The notes under the pieces were generated by a model. It ran no database searches and was not told where the DNA came from. It saw only the letters and a list, made by a program, of their open reading frames with translations. A program made the position numbers and the translations under genes. This document shows, one piece after another, positions 39,585 to 63,846 of a stretch of DNA of 64,000 nt. Every line of letters begins with the position of its first letter. Positions within the stretch are counted from its first letter, which is position 1. The DNA is from Gonapodya sp. JEL0774 (lineage: Eukaryota; Monoblepharomycota; Monoblepharidomycetes; Monoblepharidales; Gonapodyaceae), in the NCBI GenBank assembly GCA_027604505.1, contig JADIIX010000108.1, positions 1 to 64,000 on the forward strand, given 5' to 3'.

Positions 39585-42550
39585 TCAGCTCCACTGGCGC
39601 ATTGTAGACTCATCCGGTAGCTCTTCCGACTCCCACAACCCAATCCAGTCCGCTGCACCGACTCCGCATACCGCTCCCGCCAATCCAAACAACAGACGCT
39701 CCGTAAAAGTTCGTTCCGCCCATTGGAAGCCAATTGACAGCAGAATTATACAGGAAAGACACAGTACAGTGGCAACAAACGCGTCGAACCACGTTGGTTG
39801 TGGTGTTGGGGGAGGTGGGGTGACAGGACGCGGAATGTCTTCAGGGGGTGGGAAACGGTCTTGTTCGTCACCGCCACCCGTGCCACCGTTCTGGTCTTCT
39901 TCCTCATCGTCACCACCAATCTGGTAGTCGAGAGCCGGGTATGTCGGACCGTCTTCAGGGGGGCCGGCCTTCTTGGGTGCCTTTCCGGGTCTCCGGATGA
40001 CACCACTGCTGCCACCGACTGGTACCTCATCCCCATCCATTTCTACCTCCACCCGTCCGGAATTTTTTGGCCTGGGTTCCACTCCCACAATCCGCCCCTC
40101 TAGGAAGAACTTCCCCGTCCGCACGATCTCCGCCCGGCACCACCTTCCCATCACCGTTTTCACTGGCTTCCCTTCATCGTCGGCCATAGCATCATCTTCC
40201 TTCACATCCTGAACTATGATCTGCCGATAGCTCTTATCGTGCCCGACAAGCTTGACTCCATCGTGTGCCACGTCCGTCACGAGACACCGTACTGTCCGGC
40301 CTTCGAATCCATCGTACGGCTTGTACGAGTCAAAAAGCTGCGTGACTTCCCTCGACCGCTCCTTCTTGACACGGTCCGGGAACGTGGGTTTCATGCGTGC
40401 AGCGGGTGTTCCTGGGCGAGGATAAAATTGCGAAATGTGGAGGACGGGGGGTTTGAGGCGACGAACCAGTTTGAGCGTGTCCTCATGATCTTCGGCTGTT
40501 TCAGTAGGGAATCTGGCATGACATCAGGATCAGAACGGAAGCCGATATACCATTGCTGAAAGTCCGCGGCCCCACGCTGTCACACGGAATTAGACTCACT
40601 CACCCGCAAATCACATCCGTCGCCACCGTCACCCCTTCCACTCCATCTTTCACCCCGTCCACTACCTCCCAAAACCCCTCTGCCGTGTACTCTCTCCGCA
40701 TATCGTGGAGCACCTTGTCGCTTCCACTCTGTACGGGTATGTGGATAAAACTGTACACCTGCGGGTGGTTGAGAAACTCGATAAGAGAGGGAAGATGACG
40801 GCGGATGTGCGGGGGGTTGGCCATGCCGAGACGGAGCATGGCGTGGGGATATTTGGGGAGGAGGAGTGCGAGTGGGCGTAAAAGATCAGGGAGGCCGAGT
40901 CCTGCACGGTAACGGATGGAGTTGTGAAGCGCACAATCAAACAACGTACTCAATAGAAGGCCAATGGGGATCCTCATCGCCCCCAACATCCCTAATTGCA
41001 TCACAATAATACTCACCGAGATCCGCACCCCACGCGCCGACATCCTCACTGGTGATCCAAATCTCGGTGACGCCCTCATCGCGGAGTACGTGCTCGACGC
41101 GAGCGACGATGGCCTCGGGAGCATAGGATCCGAGGTCACCTCGGGCGAACTTGGTCTTGCAGCTGAGACGGAGTGAGGTGAGGATATTCGAAAAGTGAGG
41201 GGAGCAGTGCTTTATGCCAAGATAATATGGTGAAAAACTCACTAGGTGCATTGGTTGAGACAACTTCCCATGGTGCGTTGGAGGGGATTCAAGAGTGATC
41301 AGCCTTCAGTCCCTCCCAAGGCCACCTGACATACTCCGAACACATACTATCCCCACGGTCCACTCACCCTGTGTTGATCGGTACGATCTCCACCAATGCA
41401 TTCCGTCGAACTTTCGGCAGATCGAGTGGAGCTCCGCCAGCTTTCCGCGATCGAAGGCGAGGCATCGGGATCGGTGTCTCCTCGACACCATCGGAAGCCG
41501 GAAGTGCAGTGGGTGGATCGGGTTTCTTGTCGCGAAGAAGCTGGGGCGACGACATGGAAGTCATTAAGAACCTCTGCATTTGCTTCACAGGGCCAAAATC
41601 CAGTTCCATCAAGACTTCTGTCCCAGTCTTCGAAGCCACACGGCATACGCAACATCTCTACTGAAATTGATTCCACAAGGGCGCTCACCTGTACGCAGTT
41701 CCCCTTGATCGTTTCTTCCACGACCTCTACCACCCGATCTATTTGTTGGACCTTGAGGTGCATGAATCACGAAAATTCGGAGGAAGCAAAAGGTGTGGCG
41801 CGAATTAGACTTGCAGGATCACTCAGCGCCTCGTGTCCAGTTCTCCAACAACTCACTCCGATGATGCTGATCCCATCCCATCGTTTATCTCTGCTGCTCG
41901 CCTGAGGAACACATCCGGAAACTATGACCTTCTTCCCCAGTCGTCTGGCGCGGTTGACGTCGGCGAGGAAGGAGGCCTCCGACGGACCTTTGACGGTACA
42001 GGAGTTCAGGAGCCATACATCCGCAGAGTTGGCGTCTGTGTCGGACAGGACGAGGGGGTGGCCATGCTTCGCAAGCATACCGCTCATATACTCGGCATCA
42101 CTGGTTCGCGGTGGTGGAATGTAAGGGAAGTTGGACGCGGTGTGTTACTTCGCATAGCCGACCGTCGCCGACGTACCTCGAATTATGGCTGCATCCCCAG
42201 GTCCGCACATACACTGAGTGTGATCCAGGAAGAACAAAGTCAGGGGCTGTAGAACCCATATCCTTGGCGTCGTTTTCGCTTGGGGCTGCCGATCCCTCCA
42301 TTGTCGGTAGGTCCTCTTTTCGAGCAGTCTTCACGGCCAAGACAGCAGACTCAGCAGCACTTGTCTTCACAGTTTTCGTTTTCCTTCGTCTAACGCCTGC
42401 AGCACCGTTGATGCTCGGTCTGCTGGCGACTTCCCACATCGAAACCCGATACGGAGCTCCAGATCCCGCGCCGTCACCGTCTGGCATGAGGGAAGCGGCA
42501 TCTTCGATGTCGTGGATTGCACTCGATGGCGGGAGAGCTACAACGGGCAT
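39585..42550 (-). CDS. CDKAL1-type tRNA-t6A37 methylthiotransferase with C-terminal membrane anchor
   Basis: Eight exons close in phase: 42550-42177, 42100-41857, 41751-41689, 41540-41368, 41263-41243, 41162-41017, 40901-40604 and 40512-39585, giving 748 residues. Domains in order are a disordered N-terminus (~1-115), the UPF0004 domain with three Cys (VRTWGCSHN, LLNSCTVKGPSE, VSGCVPQA), and the radical-SAM domain with the C-x3-C-x2-C cluster motif in NTGCLNQCTYCKTKFARG. Next come SEDVGAWGADLG, LRLGMANPPHI, FIHIPVQSGSD and QFYPRPGTPAARM, a TRAM domain, and a C-terminal hydrophobic anchor (VATVLCLSCIILLSIGF). The enzyme converts t6A to ms2t6A at position 37 of Lys tRNA(UUU), using two 4Fe-4S clusters and SAM, on the ER surface. 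The radical-SAM motif is split by a 21-nt exon. Confidence 0.95.
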
Positions 42551-58015: not shown

Positions 58016-60350
58016 TCACTTCTTCTTGGCCGCCCCTCTCGCACGCTTCGCAGGAGGCCCGTCCCCAGACTCGCTCGCGCTGTCAGCGATACTATCCGCC
58101 AGTATAACGTTTGGCTTGGTAACCGGATCGTCAACCTGCATCACCGCCTCCGAGTTGGTACCAGTCGGAGCCGCCGCAGGCACAGAAGGCACCACGGGTG
58201 CAGCAGGAGGAACTACCGCTGGCGGTGCTCCGGGTCTCTCGCCCAACAACCATATGGAGTGGTTTGCCCCACATCCAAGGGCAAGCGTCTTTCGTCCCTG
58301 CAGTTCAATCAACTCCGGTGATTCCCGAGTCTCATCGTCCCTGGTGCCCAAATTGCCCATCTGATTCAATCCCCATCCGTATAATCTGCCTGATCTCGTT
58401 ATGGCCATGGTGTATCGACCACCACACGCAACGAAATCCACCCCCTCTCCATCAAAGTTGTCGATGAGTTTCGGACGCAATACCAGAACATGGGTAGTTG
58501 TGAGGGCTCCAGTGATGACTGTGCTGTACTCGTCGGACTCTACGCCACATTGATAATCGTCATTCCGTCCAAAGCCGTACAGTCGACCTGGATGTGGCAG
58601 AAGTTGGAAGTCACGGCGGTGAGGGTTCAGATTGGGTTCGATGGCCGTTGGTAAGGTACAAAGGGCTCACCATCTTCCAACAGAATCATAGAGTGAAATT
58701 CCCCGGCCGCACACATCTTGACCTTCACTCCCTGGGGCAAACCCTCCACCTCCGCAGGAGTCTCAACGGAAGTTTCGCAATCGCCAAACCCAAGCTGAGA
58801 GTACCCATTCAGACCAAACGCAAAAACTTGCGTTCGATCCTTACTGACTAGGAATGTATGGTCGCCGCCCGAGCAAACCTCGGAGAATTTGAGACGGCGG
58901 TTCCAGTTCAAGGCCCGAGGCAGGAGGGACGCCTCGCCCTTGAATCTCGCCATAATACGACGTCCTAATGCGCCGTGTTCACCGATGCCCCAGGAGAATG
59001 CAGTACCAGCAGCGTCAATTGCTGTGGCGTGGTTGTTGCCCATCGAAATGGAGACAATGTGTCGCAGATTCGGGACCTTTACGAACTCGCGGACGACTTG
59101 ACCCTTCTCAAAGAAGCCGTAGTTGCCGTTCGTGTCCTGGGGACAGGTGTGAAGATGTTACATAGAGGATTGAATTCATCAGCGAAAACGTTTGGGCATC
59201 AGTCACGCCAGGACTTCAGCCGAAAGGACAGGAAACATGGGTCTTCACTCACTCTCCAGTTCCCACAACCATATACTTCGCCGAGTTCAGTCAGTACCAG
59301 TGTTACATTGTCCCCGGATACCATCTTCACGATCCGATCCACATCCTGGAGGCCTTGGGCAGGGTAAGGAATATAGTCCTTGTTTTCTGTACTGCGACCG
59401 AGACAGCCTTGGTCATTGCATCCCCAGGTGTAGAGTGTTTGCTGTAGACAAGGCAATCGTACGTTGTTGCTGGGTTCCAAAGAATGGCTGATTGGATACG
59501 AAACAAGTCGCTCACATTCCCTGTTGCATCTACCCCGAGTGCCAAAGAAGAGAGACCACCTGCTGCAACATCAACAATTCCACTATTCTCGATGACAACG
59601 ACTTTTCTGGGCTTGCCGTCTCCTCCAGGGATGGGGTCGCCGTCTTCGTCGACAATTCCGAGAGAGCCAATGGTGCCATCACCACTGAAAACGAACATTC
59701 GCAGAATGAGAAGGATGTTCGCAGAATGAGAAGTTTATCGCAAAAAATTTTGCTAGGAAACGGTTGACAACGCGTGTCCCTTGTTTTGCATCATGGATTC
59801 AGAATCGCCCTCCTCTGCAACTCAGATTGCGACCACCAAGCAACCCTCAGGCGCTGGGGCAGCTTAGTAGATTCAATACGCACCTGACAAAAACAGTTCC
59901 CGGTGTCGTTCTCGGCCTCGGCAGAGGAAAGTAGCTGGCAAATTTTCGGAGGACGGGGTTCGTCTTCTCCGCTCTCGAAACCCCTTTGGGCTTCCCACGG
60001 GCAGAAAGATTGAGTGCCGCCGTCGATTGAGAGAGCTCCTCTGTACTGCCCTGAGATTCAGTTTCGGATGCCTTCCGCTTTCGGGGGGGAGGGCTGGACC
60101 CCTCTGGGGTGATCGAGTCACGAGCTTGAGACGCCGCTGAGACCAGCCTGCTCGAGTCCGCCGTCTTGGTAGCACGCAAACGCCGGCCTCCTGAACTCTC
60201 TTCTCCTGGAACGGGAACGACCGATGTGTCTCTGGATTTGTCGCCACGGCGGGTTGGACGGGAAGGGGCAAATGAAGCTGAGGACGCGTTGGAATCGGTT
60301 TCCATGGCGTCGTTGAGGGAAGGTACCGTGTGGCGGGTCGGTCGAGGCAT
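58016..60350 (-). CDS. RCC1-type Ran guanine nucleotide exchange factor
   Basis: Five exons close in phase: 60350-59884, 59684-59516, 59441-59253, 59136-58671 and 58587-58016, giving 620 residues. The first ~145 residues are disordered and basic, with PPPRKRKASE as a candidate NLS. RCC1 blades follow: SGDGTIGSLGIVDEDGDPIP, VDVAAGGLSSLAL, LYTWGCNDQGCLGR, VYGCGNWRD, SISMGNNHATAIDAAG, FSWGIGEHGALGRR, VCSGGDHTFLV, VFAFGLNGYSQLG, LYGFGRNDDYQCG and LYGWGLNQMGNLG. The C-terminus is basic (KRARGAAKKK). RCC1/Prp20 proteins sit on chromatin and load GTP on Ran, setting up nuclear transport and spindle cues. Other RCC1-repeat proteins exist, but the acidic DEDGDPIPGGDG insert after the first blade is typical of Ran exchange factors. 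Confidence 0.88.
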
Positions 60351-60935: not shown

Positions 60936-63846
60936 ATGGAGGGCCTTAAATCCCATACCTTGAAGCTACATTTGACTCAACCGGCAAAGTCAGTCGCGGT
61001 CGCTGGAACCTTCAGTGACTGGTCAGCCGTAGCAATGATTTCAGAAACCAATGGAGATGCCCAAGGTCAAGTTTTCAAAGCCACGATTGCATTTCCAGTC
61101 GGAAAGCTTGTACAGGTACGTTTAGTGAGGGGGTGGGTCGGTTTGGTGACAGAGATCAAGAAATGATGACATCATCAGTGCTCGTTCATATTCCAACCTT
61201 TGCCATCGTTCAGTACAAGTATATACTCGACGGAAACTGTAGGTGTGATTTTGTGTCTTGTGGTGCTTGTATCCTTCCTCTTACCGCAAGTTTGCGTACT
61301 CGGCCTGCCTGGTACTGCCCGCGGATCACGAAAAAAACATAAGGGGTCGCAGATCTCACGCAGCCCACAATGAGCGACGGTACGGTGTAGCTTCCGGATC
61401 AATTCTTTCATTGGTTCAATCTCTTTCTGGCTCTACAGGCCTCGGATCCGTCAATAACTACATTACGATTACCAATGATCTACCATTACAACCATCCAAT
61501 GAGCTTCCAATCACTCAGAGGAGTCACTCAAAAGGGAACCTATTCAAAACCGCTCTTTGCGTTCGCTACGAGAAAACTGGATGCTGTCCGGATGGGGACA
61601 AGTGAGTGTCGTAGCTCAAGGCACCTGAAGATCATGACCTCATTCGATCAACGATCAAACTTTTCCCTTTGTGGATTGATAACCGCTCGCAGATGTCGTT
61701 TTGCCCACGGAACACAGGATCTCAAACCTATTCCTACATGCAAGTTTGGCTCTCGATGTGTAAAGGAAGTTTGTAATCTGAAGCACGAACCCGACGGTGA
61801 GACTGTTGGTCGTGTTTCCATCATTCGAGCGGTCGCTGAGTTACACTGTCGATACCACCATCCTTGGTCAATACTTTCTTTCAGCTCACGTCGTACGCCC
61901 CACTCCGATCAGGGAAGATGGATGTGATCCTTCGGGAGTATCCGTACAAGGCACAAGATTCAGTGAGCAGACTGCGAGGAATGTGCAGGCTTCCAGCTCC
62001 AGTAAAAGTGCCAGCCTAGGGAAGAAGGATACGTGCGTGATCCCTGCGATGAGTGATGGGAACCGAGTCATCTTCGTCTCCCCAAATTCTTCGACTGGGT
62101 GACTTTTGCATAACTCCGTTTTCCCAGCAGCCCAAACTCTGGCAAAAAGTTTGGCTCTTGGAGTGGATCAGATCTACTGTACAAGACCGCCCTCTGTCAC
62201 TTCTTCACGCGTGACGGCCAATGCAAGGGTGGAGATAAGTGGGTGATCGTTGAGGCACTTCCAGGACTATCAGATCGTTAATCAACTGTCTCCATGTTGC
62301 ATATTTCTATTGGAAGATGCCTTTATGCCCACAGCGAAGCGGAACTTCGGCCGAAGCCGCCATGCCCTAGTGGAACAGAATGCATATATGAGAAGTGTCA
62401 GTTTGATCACAAAGAAAAAGGCAAAGATGGAAACGACAATCAGAATTCGGAAGGTGCGTCTGGCGAAAGTTTATTTTCATGCCTCCAAGTACTCTGATCA
62501 GCAAGATCACCCACACTCGTGATCTTATACTCGATTGTTTGAACGATCAGTCACAGAATTCTCCAGCCCCCTGGATGAACTCTACAAGGCGGATATTTGT
62601 ACCTTTTTCACAAAATCTGGCTTTTGTAAATGGGGTAGCGAGTAAGTATGTGCGCACATGAGAGATCAGAAACGATGGATTGTCGTCGCTGATAAGTCAC
62701 CTTCGTTTGCACCGGTATCACAGCTGTATGTTCGCACATGGCAATCACGAGCTTCTTCCGCGACCTCCATGCAGGTTTGGCACGGCGTGTCACAAAATTG
62801 GACGAGGCTGTCGATACCAGCATGATCCGGAACCAACGCCAGTGAAGTCACACGCAATCAGGAAAACTGGAACTGGAAGGAAGCAAGAAAATTCCGATTC
62901 GCGAAGTGTCGCGAAAACTGAAATTACGAAAGGTGATAGTGGAGAGACCGAAAAAAAGGCAACCAGGTGAGTAGATCAGTTTGGAAAGTGTAAAGGGGCT
63001 CATGTACTCTTGTCAAATATCTCAAGTGGCGTCCAATTGAATTAAACGCAGCACCACTGATAGCTCCCCCCTGTCAGACGATCGCGACAAGCAACGCACA
63101 CTTGACGTTGCTCATAACAAATCCAAGGAGGTGGACCTGCTCTCGGCGATCCTCGGGCCGGCAGGCCTCCAACCTCTTCCACAAGAGACGATTGACTTCG
63201 TGGCCCATGCTACACATGCTCACCCAGCCTTAGTTGCTGTTGCAGCAATCTCCCTGTGGAACGCGGCACCTGTATCGGGTGCTCGGGCCCGCACGAAGCT
63301 TTTTGGGGATCCCACGTTTGATTCGAAGCTCGTCAATTTAGTAAGAGCAATGGAGAGGGCGAAAGAAATCTTTGTGGAGAAGCTTTTGGAGGAATCTGGA
63401 GATGTCAAATTGTTTGATCAAGTGGTTCGTGCTACGAAGAAAGGGGTCGACGTGAGTTCTGTGTCTTTCCAACATGCAAGAAATGTCGGGTCCTCCGTCG
63501 CCTCCTTTACGAAACACATCAGTCAGAGATTGATAAAATTGTGAACGCAAACCAATCTTGGAGCATCGACATCGAAACCATCGCAGCAGCTCGGGCTCAA
63601 GTCCAGGATGTTGTTAGATCTTCGATCAGGGTCATCGAGGGAAAACAAGTGCGAGAAGACGGGTCCGAGACAATGCTGAGACGCAAGGAAGCACTCGAAG
63701 AGCTTGAGGTGAGTCTGATCAATGAACCATCGCAATACTGCCCCTGATGAACGCGGATCTGGGTTACTCGTGTGCCACATGTGATTATCAAGGCGCTTCT
63801 GCGACGAGCTACCGATGTTCTCGATTGGGCAGCTAAAGCGGCGTAA
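60936..63846 (+). CDS. AMPK-type glycogen-binding (CBM48-like) domain fused to six CCCH zinc fingers
   Basis: Thirteen exons close in phase: 60936-61115, 61214-61238, 61344-61379, 61439-61601, 61693-61796, 61885-62098, 62131-62238, 62317-62453, 62551-62641, 62724-62966, 63052-63451, 63523-63708 and 63793-63846, giving 646 residues. Residues ~6-88 form an AMPK1-CBM fold (SVAVAGTFSDWSAVAM, then VQYKYILDGNWVADLTQP and GSVNNYITI), keeping both Trp residues that bind sugar in AMPK-beta. Three tandem finger pairs follow. The first of each pair is C-x8-C-x5-C-x3-H (CVRYEKTGCCPDGDKCRFAH, CHFFTRDGQCKGGDKCLYAH, CTFFTKSGFCKWGSDCMFAH). The second is C-x5-C-x4-C-x3-H (C-x6-C in the last). The C-terminal ~190 residues are helical. 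CCCH fingers bind RNA; a sugar-responsive RNA regulator is one inference. Confidence 0.88.

Follow-up and report, generated by a model that had tools for sequence, protein, structure and literature searches.

The far end of the stretch of DNA analysed here (the window, 64,000 nucleotides of a contig, C108, of 64,937 bases) raises the question of whether a carbohydrate-binding module (CBM) of the AMPK-beta type and an array of CCCH zinc fingers are encoded there as a single protein and, if so, what such a protein might do. Read from the DNA, positions 60936-63846 of the forward strand hold one predicted gene of 13 exons, whose single open frame encodes 625 amino acid residues (Table 1). An earlier, sequence-only reading had proposed 13 exons with phase kept across both halves, and we obtained the same count and coordinates. 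All 12 introns are GT-AG and 59 to 105 nt long, a branch-like YTRAY motif is found in five of them, and the 5' leader has an in-frame stop ahead of the ATG at 60936. Splicing of the predicted gene is ambiguous at some sites: for exons 7 and 9, other in-frame acceptors score just as well and alter only linker residues, and 160 splice variants in total stay open, as counted on a 12-exon version of the model. GC content by codon position across the gene gave no clear coding signal, and the acceptor of the 36-nt microexon, CATAAG, is without a pyrimidine tract.

Table 1. Exons of the predicted CBM-CCCH fusion gene, in window coordinates, with the protein features assigned to each.
Feature	Coordinates	Strand	Content
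Exon 1	60936..61115	+	CBM strands; first sugar-contact Trp, W29 (GTFSDW)
Exon 2 (25 nt)	61214..61238	+	YKYILDGN and base 1 of the W69 codon; K62; 25-nt exon also in paralogs
Exon 3 (36-nt microexon)	61344..61379	+	Completes W69; VADLTQPTMSD and base 1 of the following Gly codon; phase 1/1; 36-nt exon also in paralogs
Exon 4	61439..61601	+	LGSVNNYITI (last CBM strand), linker, start of CCCH finger 1; single open frame, the join
Exon 5	61693..61796	+	Remainder of finger 1; finger 2 (CX5CX4CX3H)
Exon 6	61885..62032	+	Linker
Exon 7	62128..62238	+	Start of finger 3 (CX8CX5CX3H); acceptor 62131 scores equally well
Exon 8	62317..62453	+	Remainder of finger 3; finger 4 (CX5CX4CX3H)
Exon 9	62551..62641	+	Start of finger 5; acceptor 62557 scores equally well
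Exon 10	62724..62966	+	Remainder of finger 5; finger 6 (CX5CX6CX3H)
Exon 11	63052..63451	+	C-terminal region; helical prediction, low confidence
Exon 12	63523..63708	+	C-terminal region
Exon 13	63793..63846	+	C-terminal end, TAA stop

The two halves of the protein meet inside one exon. Exon 4 (61439-61601) alone encodes LGSVNNYITITNDLPLQPSNELPITQRSHSKGNLFKTALCVRYEKTGCCPDGD, in which the final strand of the CBM is followed, in the same frame, by a linker and then the opening part of finger 1; the fusion thus lies in uninterrupted DNA and the join needs no splicing. In this respect the sequence-only reading, which had splicing bring the halves together, needs refining; its companion claim, that a false join of two genes is unlikely, is strengthened by the same exon. 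Among the 127,996 six-frame codons that the window contains, the motif G[STNH][VIL]NNx[IVL], picked after the sequence had been seen, occurs once, in exon 4. Given the reading frame of exon 4, together with the ranking of splice models and the exon structure of paralogs presented below, the CBM-CCCH join is real at the DNA level. A CBM gene and a neighboring CCCH gene might conceivably have been joined by mistake, since relatives of each half occur elsewhere in the genome and translation of a CCCH-only product could begin at Met78 in the microexon. Against this stand the uninterrupted passage from CBM strand to finger and a motif that is unique in the window exactly at that place, and we regard a mistaken join as extremely improbable.

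The exons upstream of this boundary include the microexon, on which the second tryptophan of the CBM depends, the W69 codon being split between 61238 and 61344. When the microexon is left out, W69 changes to Cys and the score against the Pfam AMPK1_CBM profile is 33.0 bits instead of 54.3. Fixing exon 1, the start of exon 2 and exon 4, and permitting no more than one microexon, leaves 52 ways of splicing in frame and without a stop, among which the microexon model, with donor GTAGGT, ranks first: it scores 123 against AMPK beta2, compared with 112 for the next model and 82 for the best without a microexon. Against AMPK beta1 it scores 121 and the runner-up 110. A 12-exon model lacking the microexon was dropped on the grounds of the Cys substitution, the lower CBM score and the presence of the microexon in paralogs. 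Both key Trp residues, W29 and W69, are thus present, as had been proposed, provided that the microexon is included. Since the microexon is 36 nt long and in phase 1/1, its skipping would preserve the frame yet delete W69.

The N-terminal domain is matched by AMPK1_CBM (PF16561) over residues 11-93 (54.3 bits against a cut-off of 26.8, E = 1.6e-14, profile positions 5-81 of 85), in agreement with the AMPK-beta-like carbohydrate-binding fold suggested from the sequence at the outset, and its Trp residues are at positions 29 and 69. In rat AMPK beta1, the crystal structure suggested W100, K126, W133, L146 and T148 as sugar contacts, and all of the mutations made in such residues markedly lowered glycogen binding, L146A less completely than the others (PMC2642990). 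In our alignment with beta1 and beta2, these five residues correspond to W29, K62, W69, L82 and S84, of which four are identical and the fifth, T148 to Ser, is conservative. The domain is 34-35% identical to the AMPK beta glycogen-binding domain (PF16561; PDB 2f15 and 1z0n), with the equivalents of W100, K126, W133 and L146 kept. An AMPK beta subunit, however, has a C-terminal AMPKBI domain (PF04739), whereas here the CBM is joined to CCCH fingers and a Pfam search of the 625-residue protein gave no AMPKBI match at E<=1; for lack of that domain, an identity as AMPK beta was rejected. An AMPKBI match on another contig, C37, was below the cut-off at 15.1 bits and by eye looked spurious.

The genome (25 Mb in 381 contigs) was searched for relatives of the CBM, and an AMPK1_CBM-like first exon was found at five further loci, on contigs C158, C130, C17, C221 and C31 (L024 and L033-L036), which by sequence similarity are a small expanded family in this fungus. 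The C158 CBM was confirmed by Pfam (AMPK1_CBM, 72.7 bits), and the other four loci were recognized by their similarity to it. Two CBMs lie in tandem in C158, where the CBM has exons of 25 and 36 nt and the first three exons end in phases 0, 1 and 1, as in the fusion gene; its alignment with the fusion CBM scores 142, compared with a maximum of 41 in 1000 shuffles. C31 has clean 25- and 36-nt exons like those of C158. C130 has the same exon lengths, but the AG of its microexon acceptor is changed to TG and the copy looks degenerate. C221 has a single exon of 61 nt (25 + 36) with the intron absent, so that microexon-like content belongs to the CBM domain in contiguous DNA. The exon ends of these four paralogs were picked by eye with the fusion exons in mind and were script-checked afterwards. 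As in the fusion gene, the CBM lies near the N terminus in C158, C31 and C221, and C158 and C31 share with it the intron after GKLVQ/GGRLE/GQRVE as well as the 25-nt and 36-nt exons. These genes, which we liken to the fungal Crp1/Mdg1 genes, differ from the fusion gene in what follows the CBM: eight downstream ORFs at the five loci have no Pfam match over the cut-off and no CCCH fingers. An annexin-like impression in the C158 gene found no support from Pfam on two ORFs.

The weak matches between C158 and the fusion CBM in searches indicate that their kinship is distant. A six-frame genome search with the C158 CBM gave eight matches at E<=10, on five contigs including C158 itself, and the fusion gene was not among them; the fusion CBM as the query reached C17 at E = 0.16 and C158 at E = 1.08. 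The proposed kinship rests on the whole-domain alignment, Pfam and exon structure. A search of the genome contigs with the PF16561 profile returned no match, presumably because introns split the domain. A tree of six CBM rows was weak (79/84) and gave the fusion CBM a very long branch, near AMPK beta if anything, so we claim no origin for this CBM. For the fusion gene, the genome gave 14 matches among the best candidates, 11 on C108 and three to fingers only (C17, C33 and C26), and by this search the gene appears to be single-copy.

The CCCH half contains six complete C-C-C-H motifs (residues 121-140, 151-166, 242-261, 272-287, 318-337 and 348-365), arranged, as the sequence-only reading had described, in three tandem pairs, each made up of a TTP-like finger and then a short one. 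Pfam recognizes zf-CCCH (PF00642; 66.3 bits, cut-off 20.5, E = 1.9e-18) and UNK-type CCCH (PF25427; 47.5 bits, cut-off 31.1, E = 1.7e-12). Finger 1 has the spacing CX7CX6CX3H, which can also be read as CX8CX5CX3H, the spacing of fingers 3 and 5; the short fingers are CX5CX4CX3H (2 and 4) and CX5CX6CX3H (6). The gap within a pair is exactly 10 residues in all three pairs, and each of the three first fingers has a TTP-like K(T/A)xxC lead-in. We take TIS11d to have two aromatic stacking positions, one of them after the second Cys; that position is aromatic only in finger 5 of the three TTP-like fingers, so the RNA specificity may differ or be weaker. An isolated CCCH pair on C33 (L021:3647-3820), whose aligned part is 53% identical to fingers 5-6, has both zinc-binding His residues replaced (by Y and Q) and is perhaps a relic of the pair unit.

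The finger array resembles several known types. Unkempt has six CCCH fingers and a C-terminal RING; the fusion protein likewise has six fingers and exceeds the PF25427 cut-off, and it differs in its N-terminal CBM, its paired fingers and the lack of a RING match in Pfam. The TTP/ZFP36 family is defined by two C-x8-C-x5-C-x3-H fingers 18 residues apart (PMC9498899), a definition that leaves out the fusion protein, whose second fingers are CX5CX4-6CX3H and start 10 residues past the first in all three pairs. The plant RR-TZF arrangement, C-X7-8-C-X5-C-X3-H-X16-C-X5-C-X4-C-X3-H with an Arg-rich lead-in (PMC9498899), is nearly matched in its CX7-8CX5CX3H and CX5CX4CX3H fingers, and it differs in having a spacer of 16 rather than 10 residues and one pair rather than three, the Arg-rich lead-in being judged by eye. 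As the genome's TTP-like gene the fusion gene was set aside; a separate TTP-like gene, judged by eye, is on C26 (L023).

An alternative is that these fingers bind DNA or protein and that the protein acts in the nucleus, where its CBM would mark glycogen or chromatin. Some CCCH proteins do bind DNA besides RNA, among them AtTZF1, which according to the title of a paper reportedly binds both. The phmmer matches to solved structures nonetheless include TTP, TIS11d (butyrate response factor 2) and Unkempt, all RNA binders, among others, even if a C3H1-type protein and a "cytoplasmic zinc-finger protein" rank above them; we consider a nuclear role of this kind very unlikely and a role in binding RNA preferable.

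For the C-terminal 187 residues, Pfam gave no match at E<=10 and a comparison with PDB sequences gave four, the best at E = 0.24; residues 445-625 had no match at E<=10 among 3643 protein-database candidates. A single-sequence model of exon 11 has helices throughout at a mean pLDDT of 50.3, which is too low for a fold search. The helical C terminus put forward previously is accordingly retained for exon 11 only, and on a poor model.

What might a protein with these parts do? Our best reading, with a probability of about 0.45, is that it is an RNA regulator which glycogen either tethers or gates; the binding of sugar, the binding of RNA and the coupling of the two are all inferred for a predicted protein. 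The CBM, with its near-complete AMPK-beta-type sugar surface, would place the protein on glycogen or sense glucan, the three CCCH pairs would recognize single-stranded mRNA that is probably rich in U or A, the C-terminal region might contact partners, and use of the glycogen would release or change the mRNA-bound protein. The sequence-only reading had likewise suggested that mRNA or its control might be placed on glycogen, or that sugar sensing might set RNA fate. Such a role would be consistent with the retained sugar-contact residues and with the glycogen enzymes of the genome: two contigs have matches to glycogen synthase and one has matches to phosphorylase, so that the fungus very likely makes and uses glycogen. 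Counting against a glycogen tether, some AMPK1_CBM domains may not act as sugar binders in vivo. In adipocytes, glycogen pellets contain RNA-related proteins, and the nuclear proteins in them, mainly spliceosomal proteins and histones, were not deemed specific by the authors (PMC3622581).

The strongest competing explanation is that the RNA-binding fusion is real and its CBM makes contact with proteins, for instance AMPK/Snf1 or enzymes of glycogen metabolism, instead of tethering the protein directly to sugar. A precedent for a CBM48 region in an RNA-processing complex is the MatK-MKIP1 splicing complex, in which the CBM-MSR region of a former branching enzyme is key in binding MatK (PMC13172542). 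MKIP1 is thus like the present protein in bearing a CBM48 and taking part in RNA processing, and unlike it in being a former branching enzyme of chloroplasts, with CCCH fingers not mentioned in the accessible part of that report (PMC13172542). The sugar-contact residues of the fusion CBM are retained, though pure protein contact would not need them, and we judge this explanation somewhat unlikely.

To return to the glycogen-linked RNA regulator, its lifestyle context can be sketched from two markers. The genome has a chitin synthase of the PF01644 type, which we take to point to a fungus, and an IFT57 match over the cut-off, which we take to point to a flagellated and hence early-diverging one; with one marker for each inference, this suggests a flagellated, early-diverging fungus. 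Zoospores hold stores of glycogen and of mRNA. A direct glycogen-to-mRNA switch might then operate, in which mRNAs would be stored or silenced on glycogen particles, for example in zoospores, and be freed by loss of glucan or by splicing-out of the 36-nt microexon, with a change in the fate of the targets. We consider this extended form unlikely; if true, a sugar polymer would be gating an RNA regulator. Should the protein simply bind glycogen as well as RNA, it would hard-wire a carbohydrate store to mRNA control, two things otherwise known to be linked mainly via kinases such as AMPK, and its two Trp residues and six fingers would offer a mutable handle on whether glycogen particles organize RNA.

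The fusion consists of known domains in a new combination and is not a new kind of system. A pairing of AMPK1_CBM with CCCH fingers was not found described in the open-licence literature (titles and abstract starts). A protein database search with the whole protein gave four proteins at E<=1e-3 among the 8000 candidates with most words in common, and their listed domains include CCCH but not PF16561; one with the CBM region gave 33 candidates, none at E<=1e-3. Such searches depend on exact 5-residue words in common and on similar length and could miss distant orthologs, so that absence from them is weak evidence; within this limited sensitivity, no precedent came to light for a combination that the sequence-only reading had called unfamiliar. 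No ortholog of the fusion was found in these same searches, which therefore lend no support to selection holding both halves together. This lack is in line with a recent chimera or a decaying gene, its pieces joined in this lineage, little expressed and without coupled function, as are the degenerate CBM paralog on C130 (TG for the acceptor AG), the loss of both zinc-binding His residues in the related C33 finger pair, the weak microexon acceptor and the unclear codon-position signal. All 13 exons are nevertheless open, all 12 introns GT-AG, and the zinc ligands of the six fingers and both CBM Trp residues intact, and we think a decaying or unconnected chimera unlikely.

Two other features of the window may be mentioned. 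The upstream neighbor of the fusion gene, head-to-head with it, is an RCC1-repeat gene (58019-59157, reverse strand). Farther away, at 39588-41211 on the reverse strand, weak Radical_SAM and TRAM matches in adjacent ORFs, both below their cut-offs, possibly mark a tRNA methylthiotransferase gene.
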